DNA of 33,374 bases from Acidobacteriota bacterium (GTDB lineage Bacteria; Acidobacteriota; Polarisedimenticolia; Gp22-AA2): NCBI GenBank assembly GCA_003223165.1, contig QHXZ01000003.1, forward strand, positions 6,303 through 39,676, in the 5' to 3' direction. Below, piece by piece: positions 24,102-27,560 of the stretch (position 1 is its first letter; each line of letters opens with the position of its first letter). The notes under the pieces are model-generated. The model was not told the DNA's origin, did no database searches, and saw only the letters and a program-made list of their open reading frames with translations. Position numbers and translations under genes: made by a program.

Positions 24102-25182
24102 ATGAACGTCTCCCGTGCCGCGGCCCTGGGCGCGGCAATCTGCCTGGCTCTCGCCGCTCCCGCGGCGCCGGAGTCCGGCCCGCTGTTCAGCTCCTACCCG
24201 TCCTTCGGCGCCAAGTTCAACCTCGACACGGAGAAGTTCTCCCTGGTCACGAACCTCGTGGTCTACAACATCAGCGGCCAGACCTTCACCGACGTGAGCT
24301 TCAAGCAGACCTACCCGGACGGCGTGACGGTGAAGGAGACCTACCAGCGGGACGTGGGGACCGAGGCGACGGGGGAGCAGTCGTCGGCGCGCAAGGTCGA
24401 GGGGAACGTCTTCTTCGCCAGCCTGCAGACCTACAAGAACCGCCAGTACGTGGTCATCTTCAACGAGCTCGACCTGGCCCGGCGCCTCAACCAGATCACT
24501 TTCCCCGGGGTCGAGATCACCTACACCGATCCCGCCGGGCAGCGCCAGACGGCCAAGCTGCAGGACAGCAGCTACGATCTGTTCATCTACTCGAACGTGG
24601 TCGGCGGGCTCGAGCGCTTCATCCGCAAGTACAACTTTCGCGCCCATCGCCGCCAGCGCGCAGGGCCGCTTCCCGACCGGCATCATCGGCACGTTCCCCG
24701 GCGAGGACCAGTACAACGGCCACTTCCGCCTGCGCAGCGGCCCGCCGGACGACAACATCCAGATCGTGGTGGCCTACAGAGGGGTCAACAAGAAGGAGAA
24801 AGTCGCCGACCGCGACACGCTGCTCAAGAACCTGCGCGACTACCTGCGCTGGTGCGGCGAGTTCGAGATCCGCCAGGAGGGCCTCCAGGTGACCCAGGGC
24901 AACTGGAAGAAGTACGACGGCGCCTGGAGCGTCGAGGGGCGCTGGGTGGACACCATCAAGGACCGCCTGGGCGAAGGTCCCTTCAAGGCGAAGGTCTTCT
25001 TCAGCGGGCGCGAAGACGTCGAGTACTACGTCCTGGGCGTGGCCCATGGCCGCGGACTGGGAGCGGAAGGCAGCGCCAAGCCGAACCCCGAGAAGGAGGC
25101 GCAGCTGGCCGCCCAGATCGATCGCCTCCTCGACACCTTCAAGTCGGACATCGTGCCCCTCTCCTACGAGAGGCGGCACTAG
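24102..25182 (+). CDS. Secreted protein of unknown function, with +1 frameshift
   Basis: The product starts with a signal peptide (MNVSRAAALGAAICLALAAPAAPES, cleavage likely after an Ala). It continues as a beta-rich domain: FSSYPSFGAKFNLDTEKFSLVTNL, then FTDVSFKQTYPDGVTV, then GVEITYTDPAG. The frame is lost at 24636-24638: FIRKYNF is in the ATG frame, whereas APIAASAQGRFPTGIIGTFPGE and all the rest are in the frame of the 24766 track ORF. Removing one T from the TTT run restores a single 359-residue protein. The second part ends in SYERRH and contains the segments RDTLLKNLRDYLRWCGEFEI and KVFFSGREDVEYYVLGVA. I recognise no family. The gene has its own promoter; the two track ORFs covering it should be read as one gene. 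Confidence 0.8.
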
Positions 25183-25197
25183 GACCCTGTTCCCCGA

Positions 25198-25989
25198 TCA
25201 GGATCGCCCGGGTGAGGCGGGGGATGGCGAAGCCCCCGGCTCCGCGGGAAGCGGCGCCGGCTGGGGAGGGGGCCGGGGACCGGAGATGGTCTCGGCCGTG
25301 AACACCTCGATGCGCGCCCCTTGCGCCCAGGCACCCGGGGGCAGCGCCGCCTGCTTGCACAATTCGTCCAGCGCCCGTTCGGCGTTCAAGCCCTGGGAGC
25401 CGGCCACTCCGGGCAGGAAGACCGCGCGCCGCCCCCACTTCTCCAGGAAGATCCCGTGCCGATCGATCTGGATGGCCTCCGGCCCGCCGACCCGGTGGCG
25501 CTCGCCGATCACCTCGATCTCGACCGCGAGGTCGGGAAGCTCGAGGTCGGTCAGCGGCAGGAAGCGCGGGTCGCGCGTGGCGGCGCGGCGCGTGAAGACG
25601 ATCACCTGCTGGTAGAGCGGCCGCGTCGGCTCGATGTCGCCCTGCCGCCCCCGCACCTTGTCCCCCTTCTTGAGGGTCACGAAGCAACCCCGCTTGGCCA
25701 TCAGGCGCGGCGTGAAGGCGTATCCCTCCAGGTCGCTGTCCCTGATCGGATGGTTCGTCAGGTGTCCGGCGAGGGTCCGCCAGGCGAGGCTCAGGAGCAG
25801 GTCGCGCTCTCCCGGCTCGAGCCGAGCGTTCAGGTCGACGGTCGGCGTGGACGAAGGGGAGGGCGCGGGGGTGGGGGTCTCCTCGGGTGGAACTTCCGGG
25901 GGCGGGGCCTCCTGCGGGGGCGTCTGGGCGCGGGCGGCCGGCGGGCACAGGAGCAAGGCGAGCATCGTGGCGAGCAGGCTTCGACGCAT
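25198..25989 (-). CDS. Exported AMMECR1-like protein
   Basis: From ATG 25989 the protein has 263 residues. It begins with a signal peptide (MRRSLLATMLALLLCPPAARAQ), then a Pro/Glu/Thr-rich stretch of about 35 residues, then an AMMECR1-like domain. Matches to that fold include RGCFVTLKKGDKVRG, VIVFTRRAATRDPRFLPLTDLELPDLAVEIEVI, HGIFLEKWGRRAVFLPGVA and a C-terminal Pro-rich tail. The family's invariant LRGCIG is replaced by VRGRQG. Most AMMECR1 proteins are cytoplasmic, so export is unusual. The track start at 26007 (MLQCAG) would lie upstream of the predicted transcription start and adds residues before the signal peptide, so 25989 is preferred. It converges on the secreted-protein gene with 15 nt between stops. 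Confidence 0.8.
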   Translation of the reverse strand: MRRSLLATMLALLLCPPAARAQTPPQEAPPPEVPPEETPTPAPSPSSTPTVDLNARLEPGERDLLLSLAWRTLAGHLTNHPIRDSDLEGYAFTPRLMAKRGCFVTLKKGDKVRGRQGDIEPTRPLYQQVIVFTRRAATRDPRFLPLTDLELPDLAVEIEVIGERHRVGGPEAIQIDRHGIFLEKWGRRAVFLPGVAGSQGLNAERALDELCKQAALPPGAWAQGARIEVFTAETISGPRPPPQPAPLPAEPGASPSPASPGRS

Positions 25990-25997
25990 GCCCGCAC

Positions 25998-26026
25998 ACT
26001 GTAGCATCGGGGCGCTGGCCCATCAA
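25998..26026 (-). promoter_or_regulatory. Candidate promoter for the AMMECR1-like gene
   Basis: On the minus strand TTGATG (26026-26021), a 17-nt spacer and TACAGT (26003-25998). Both boxes match four of six consensus bases. The predicted start would be about 2 nt before ATG 25989, i.e. an almost leaderless transcript. Confidence 0.4.
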
Positions 26027-26065: not shown

Positions 26066-26093
26066 TTGACGGGGGACGGCGCTATGCTATAAT
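26066..26093 (+). promoter_or_regulatory. Strong sigma-70-type promoter for glnA
   Basis: TTGACG (26066-26071), a 16-nt spacer and a perfect TATAAT (26088-26093) preceded by TGc, i.e. an extended -10. The leader before ATG 26145 is about 45 nt and carries GGAAAGGAG as ribosome-binding site. No sigma-54 -24/-12 element was found here, although glnA is often sigma-54 controlled elsewhere. Confidence 0.9.
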
Positions 26094-26144: not shown

Positions 26145-27560
26145 ATGAGAAAGCCGGCGGACGTGTTGAAGCTGGTCAAGGACAACGACATCAAGATCGT
26201 CGACCTGCGGTTCATGGACCTGCCCGGTCTGTGGCAACACTTCTCGGTGCCGACGCACGAGCTGAGCGAGAAGTCGTTCGAGGAGGGGTTCGGGTTCGAC
26301 GGCTCGAGCATCCGGGGATTCCAGGCGATCAACGAGAGCGACATGCTGGTCGTGCCGGATCCCGAGGGCGCCTTCGTCGATCCGTTCACCGAGGTCCCGA
26401 CCCTCAACATCATCTGCAACGTCGTCGATCCGGTGACCAAGGAGCGCTACGGCCGCGACCCGCGCGCCATCGCCCAGAAGGCCGAGAATTACCTCCAGTA
26501 CACGCGCATCGCCGACACGGCGTACTTCGGGGCCGAGGCCGAGTTCTTCATCTTCGACGACGTGCGCTTCGATCAGAACGCGCACTGCGGCTACTACTAC
26601 GTCGACTCGGTCGAGGGACAGTGGAACTCGGGCCGCGAGGAGGGCCCGAACCTCGGGTACAAGCCCCGGCACAAGGAAGCCTACTTCCCGGTGCCGCCCC
26701 ACGATCACTTCCAGGACCTGCGCTCGGAGATGGTGCTGAACCTCGAACGTTGCGGGTTGACCGTCGAGGCGCACCATCACGAGGTCGCGACGGGCGGGCA
26801 GATGGAGATCGACGTCCGCTACAACAGCCTGACGCGCGCCGCCGACAACGTCACCATCTACAAGTACGTGGTCAAGAACACGGCCATCAAGCGGGGGAGG
26901 TCGGTCACTTTCATGCCGAAGCCGCTCTTCGGGGACAACGGCTCGGGCATGCACTGCCACCAGAGCCTCTGGAAGGGCGGCAAGAACCTGTTCGCCGGGG
27001 AGGGATACGGCGGATTCTCCGAGATGGGGCTGCACTACATCGGCGGCCTGCTGAAGCACTCGGCCGCCCTGGCGGCGATCATCGCCCCCACCACCAACTC
27101 CTACAAGCGCCTGACCCCCGGCTTCGAGGCCCCGGTGAACCTGGCTTATTCCCGGCGCAACCGCTCGGCCGCCATCCGCATCCCGATGATCTCCACCAGC
27201 CCGTCGGCCATCCGGCTCGAGTACCGGCCGCCCGATCCGTCCTGCAATCCCTACCTCGCCTTCGCGGCCATGATGATGGCGGGGCTCGACGGGATCGAGA
27301 ACCGGACCGACCCGGGCAAGCCGCTCGACAAGGACATCTACGGGCTCGGGCCCCAGGAACTGAAGAACATCCCCTCGCTGCCGGGGTCGCTCGACGCGGC
27401 CCTGAAGCACCTCGAGGACGATCACGACTTCCTCCTCAAGGGCGACGTCTTCACCGAGGACAACGTCCGCCTGTGGATCGAGTACAAGCGCGAGCGCGAG
27501 GTGAACCCGATGCGCCTGCGGCCTCACCCGTACGAGTTCGCCCTCTACTACGACATTTGA
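26145..27560 (+). CDS. glnA: Glutamine synthetase, type I-beta
   Basis: Central nitrogen-assimilation enzyme joining ammonia to glutamate with ATP; active as a dodecamer. The 471-residue length is the GSI norm. Motifs include [17 protein letters not shown] (N-terminal beta-grasp latch), [12 protein letters not shown] (metal ligands), [35 protein letters not shown] and NRSAAIRIP. The loop [10 protein letters not shown] contains Tyr399 at the position of the adenylylated tyrosine of E. coli GS (DKNLYDL), so the enzyme is predicted to be controlled by adenylylation. The adenylyltransferase gene glnE follows directly, which fits. The gene has a near-consensus promoter. Confidence 0.98.

Follow-up and report, generated by a model that had tools for sequence, protein, structure and literature searches.

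AMMECR1 occurs in conserved form in organisms ranging from archaea to humans, and the literature searched establishes no biochemical activity for it. The LRGCIG hexapeptide of the protein is highly conserved, and a point mutation in it has been reported as the cause of a human developmental disorder (PMC5502304). The protein described here shares with AMMECR1/AmmeMemoSam_A (PF01871, TIGR04335) the domain, the fold and the RG..G, DPRF, LP and W positions, but has the near-invariant Cys, Lys, Gln and Arg replaced, carries VRGRQG where LRGCIG would be expected, and is encoded by a gene adjoining neither a Memo nor a radical SAM gene. It matches the AmmeMemoRadiSam set in occurring together with Memo and a radical SAM protein within a genome, but not in a shared compartment or a fusion to Memo. 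Exported Memo-AMMECR1 fusions (annotated amrB) of Acidobacteriota and Segatella have in common with it a signal peptide and an AMMECR1 domain; the fusions, however, contain a Memo domain and RGC[IV]G, whereas our protein has neither and carries only a Pro-rich linker ahead of the domain. No report of exported AMMECR1 members was found in the literature searched.

In this work we analyzed a window of 33,374 bp (contig QHXZ01000003.1 of assembly GCA_003223165.1) from an Acidobacteriota bacterium, in which an exported AMMECR1 homologue with an altered signature motif had been predicted from the DNA sequence, together with the corresponding loci of related genomes.

Results

In the window the gene is present on the minus strand as an open frame of 269 aa (25198-26007), with a listed start at ATG 26007 (MLQCAGM) that falls within the -10 box ATGCTACAGT. 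Alignment of the regions upstream of the orthologues showed TA[TCG]AGT in all of them, 7-9 nt ahead of an ATG or GTG which starts a signal peptide, and the window has the arrangement TTGATG-N17-TACAGT-N8-ATG, with the ATG at 25989. The -10 box and spacing shared by the orthologues therefore place the likely gene start at 25989 and not at 26007; the start used in the original prediction was probably six codons too early, and the corrected ORF (25198..25989, minus strand) encodes 263 aa. The promoter TTGATG-N17-TACAGT (25998..26026, minus strand), with its -10 box 8 nt ahead of the start codon, was assigned from the orthologue upstream regions and from the consensus match alone. With this layout the mRNA is probably leaderless.

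From ATG 25989 the protein begins with the signal peptide MRRSLLATMLALLLCPPAARA (25927..25989, minus strand) followed by QTPP, with predicted cleavage between ARA and QT and a hydrophobicity peak of 2.44 over 12 residues. The same 12-residue peaks range from 2.2 to 3.1 in the exported orthologues, all of which keep the signal peptide, as opposed to 0.4-1.5 in cytosolic paralogues. No lipobox was found in the protein, and the simplest reading of its predicted localization is thus a free periplasmic or secreted protein. The signal peptide is followed on the minus strand by a Pro-rich linker of about 35 aa (25822..25926), the AMMECR1 domain (PF01871; 25288..25791) and a Pro-rich C-terminal tail (25201..25278), linker and tail being Pro-rich in the orthologues also. 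AMMECR1 is the single Pfam domain (residues 73-240 of the 269-aa frame; PF01871, 123.7 bits, E 7e-36, cut-off 25); the protein passes NCBIfam TIGR04335 (AmmeMemoSam_A; 124.5 bits, cut-off 99) and stays under the cut-off of TIGR00296 (80.1 bits, cut-off 91). An AlphaFold2 model of the core domain has a pLDDT of 92, and Foldseek matched it significantly only to solved AMMECR1 structures, the three being 1vaj, 1zq7 and 1wsc (E 4e-18 to 1zq7, TM 0.83 to 1vaj). By this structure prediction, which had been suggested as a check, the AMMECR1 fold is predicted to be retained. The signal peptide, Pro-rich spacer, AMMECR1 domain and VRGRQG motif that had been read from the DNA are thus all present in the ORF.

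The altered motif (25639..25656, minus strand) replaces LRGC[IVL]G with VRGRQG, by which Cys121 is lost and Gln122 gained. Seven readable exported sequences were compared with 48 other Acidobacteriota AMMECR1 domains. Cys121 is present in 48/48 of the latter and in none of the seven exported sequences, which have M, L, R or S; Lys219 (48/48 elsewhere) is Q in all seven, Gln200 (46/48 elsewhere) is G or A, Arg76 (39/39 elsewhere) is W in 6/6, and position 122, which is I, V or M elsewhere, is Q in 7/7. All seven readable orthologues have the motif RGxQG (x = R, M, L or S), the Cys being always gone and the Gln always present, which refines the variant first noticed in the window into one shared by its relatives. 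Arg119, Gly120, Gly123, Asp146, Arg148, Leu198 and Pro199 are retained, and with them RG..G, DPRF and LP. Cys217 is the sole Cys of the mature domain common to all complete exported copies, and members of the wider family do not all have it. RGC is likewise kept in all of 42 further domains from outside the clade (40 from Acidobacteriota), and no Cys-less AMMECR1 was found outside the exported clade among the Acidobacteriota sequences examined. Values of dN/dS among the exported orthologues are 0.12-0.42, which are rough figures given synonymous distances near 1, and on these sequence comparisons the exported copy is under purifying selection.

An exported copy is present in all eight sampled genomes of this Acidobacteria family, which belong to four genera, and at the same locus each time; the presence of orthologues in all seven other genomes shows that the exported gene is not due to chance. 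Two of these orthologues are incompletely readable: in one the contig has a run of N across the N-terminal region, and in the other about one third of the domain is missing from its start. In this latter copy (L016, G001:C47) the missing stretch, in frame, takes with it most of the RGxQG motif; this may represent a genuine loss, the domain then being dispensable in that genome, or a wrong assembly. All eight genomes also have a separate cytosolic AMMECR1 with LRGC[IV]G. In the window genome this second copy lies on a different contig (G000:C188, locus L001) and shares the domain and about 36% identity with the exported copy, but it has no signal peptide, keeps LRGCIG intact and is not the nearest relative of the exported clade in the trees. 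The sister family of the same order (4 genomes) had standard AMMECR1 only, and the exported clade is represented in 0/33 genomes of the class other than the eight. When a profile built from the exported clade itself was run on a phylum-wide sample of 396 genomes, it scored 224-352 bits on the eight and at most 150 bits elsewhere. A scan of genome contigs with the single exported protein gave no match, the same scan with the clade alignment returned five loci only, all in family genomes already counted, and a plasmid search found only two distant Memo-AMMECR1 fusions.

The gene order in all eight genomes is mglA, a gene for a CAAX-type protease, a gene for a secreted protein, the exported AMMECR1 gene convergent with the latter, and the divergent glnA-glnE; in one of the eight mglA lies beyond the stretch available. 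The secreted protein (24102..25182, plus strand), onto which the AMMECR1 gene converges as originally described, is intact and 64-80% identical in the seven other genomes and gave no match in a Pfam search; the window copy is frameshifted near 24640, where about 17 codons common to all relatives are missing. On the other side glnA (26145..27560, plus strand), with glnE next, completes the conserved frame of the locus. A strong consensus glnA promoter (TTGACG-N16-TATAAT; 26066-26093, plus strand), is conserved in most of the family, and the -35 box of the AMMECR1 gene, which is transcribed divergently, lies about 40 bp away. The locus of the sister family is alike, but in its 4/4 genomes the slot flanked by the secreted gene and by glnA is occupied, in the same orientation, by a gene for an exported DsbD_N-type protein (PF11412; L126-L129). 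This protein shares slot, orientation and export with the exported AMMECR1, but is an unrelated domain with a Cys pair and is a positional analogue only. In the exported-AMMECR1 family no DsbD_N gene was found in this slot, and its DsbD_N matches come from long frames (about 970-1290 aa) at other places. We read the difference as a replacement within the slot.

Memo and the radical SAM protein are each present in 7/8 family genomes, unlinked to the exported AMMECR1 gene. Memo has no signal peptide and is thus predicted to be cytosolic; the cytosolic AMMECR1 paralogue is a likelier partner for these two proteins than the exported copy. One genome also encodes, at G007:C7:2977-4020, a second AmmeMemoRadiSam radical SAM protein that scores 583 bits, against about 270 bits for the usual one. 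Export was surveyed among Memo-AMMECR1 fusions taken from the best profile matches (L047-L087, L169-L188), which are thus a non-random sample: 25 of the first 27 were over a simple cut-off on hydrophobicity taken to mark a signal-peptide-like N-terminus and a 26th (L071), just under it, has a clear signal by inspection, while 20 of 21 further fusions were over a slightly lower cut-off, 19 from Acidobacteriota (19/19) and one from Segatella (Bacteroidota). The signal-bearing fusions keep [LV]RGC[IV]G, with the Cys intact in all; by itself, then, export is not new, and it does not go together with the change of motif. The family had been taken to be normally intracellular, which does not describe Acidobacteriota, where 26/27 and 19/19 sampled fusions have export signals, and part of the AmmeMemoRadiSam system appears from these signals to lie outside the cytoplasm.

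In both trees the exported copies form one clade with support of 100/100, as the family tree had been proposed to decide. The stem of this clade is long (about 0.95), and its internal branches are similar in length to the branches of the cytosolic paralogue. The clade could have originated from the exported Memo-AMMECR1 fusions of Acidobacteriota, with loss of the Memo half, retention of the signal peptide and drift of the motif once Memo was gone, a scenario which we hold at somewhat under even odds. The nearest rows to the clade in the first tree are exported fusions (81/57), fusions give the top profile scores outside the clade, export signals are widespread among the sampled Acidobacteriota fusions, and in a larger tree with 42 added sequences a starred branch (99/83) joins the cytosolic copies to other standalone proteins and excludes the clade. 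That larger tree, however, does not fix the place of the clade, which has a long stem, a grouping of the clade with the cytosolic paralogues is not rejected by the AU test (p 0.13), and no Memo-AMMECR1 fusion was found in the family or at the locus. This origin is compatible with what we propose below for the function.

Discussion

We favor, at a probability of roughly 0.5, the reading that the exported protein is a periplasmic, neofunctionalised binding domain for which canonical AMMECR1 chemistry would be impossible. It would be a Sec-exported free periplasmic protein, specific to this family and paralogous to the cytosolic AMMECR1 that belongs to the AmmeMemoRadiSam set. The Cys, Lys, Gln and Arg, judged by their invariance alone, would belong to the canonical active site or ligand site, and with their loss the exported copy would be incapable of the canonical chemistry. 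The domain would instead be held in the envelope on its Pro-rich extensions, acting without a Memo partner and binding a new ligand or partner via a newly conserved set of polar residues (Q122, Q134, R140, R170 and the EKWGRR loop); it should be noted that the invariance of these residues within the clade is that of seven related sequences and partly reflects shared ancestry. A role in envelope protein or thiol/metal upkeep is faintly suggested, because the exported DsbD_N-type protein of the sister family occupies exactly that slot.

An enzyme with altered chemistry is the main competing explanation, and one we consider unlikely while giving it real weight. Here Q122, Q134, R140 and R170, or the retained Cys217, Asp146 and Arg148, would form a different active site for an exported substrate, for which the strong constraint on the new polar positions and on C217 and the retention of D146 and R148 would be expected. 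Against it, no catalytic or metal motif can be recognised in the protein, C217 varies in the wider family, and the literature searched gives no canonical reaction. A further proposal, which we regard as doubtful, is that the Cys-less exported AMMECR1 took over both role and slot of the exported DsbD_N-type protein beside the secreted protein. The exchange of one exported protein for another at this position makes functional replacement no more than a suggestion, and the swap may be a coincidence; were the takeover true, it would link the AMMECR1 fold with envelope thiol/metal upkeep and provide a handle on the ligand of the fold.

That the gene is a decaying duplicate with a chance signal-like start is very improbable and was largely refuted: key residues are gone, one copy is shortened within the domain and the window neighbour is frameshifted, but synteny is kept in 8/8 genomes over four genera, the dN/dS of 0.12-0.42 and the conserved promoter indicate maintenance, and the within-clade rate resembles that of a functional paralogue. 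The combination of a long stem and later constraint is more in line with an altered function than with decay. A signal peptide created by start choice or assembly is scarcely credible and is refuted, since the listed start, truly off by six codons, gives way to one that improves the signal peptide and since the same layout of promoter, start and signal recurs on independent contigs of other genera.

Returning to the proposed neofunctionalised periplasmic domain, the novelty of the exported protein is the loss of conserved residues and the absence of Memo, and not export. The original prediction thus stands as regards the single clade and the altered motif (100/100; RGxQG in 7/7), and neither condition named as refuting it holds, the orthologues having kept the signal peptide and no frame or start error having created it, while export as an exception in the family does not, in view of the signal-bearing fusions. 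The exported protein is a real, selected, family-restricted variant of AMMECR1 in uncultured soil and groundwater Acidobacteria, and an ancient fold seems to have taken on another use outside the cytoplasm. Exported AMMECR1, in the form of Memo fusions, is common in Acidobacteriota, and any functional model must accommodate it. A selected natural variant without the hallmark Cys, and without three further residues that are near-invariant elsewhere, offers a ready comparison for the role of those residues.
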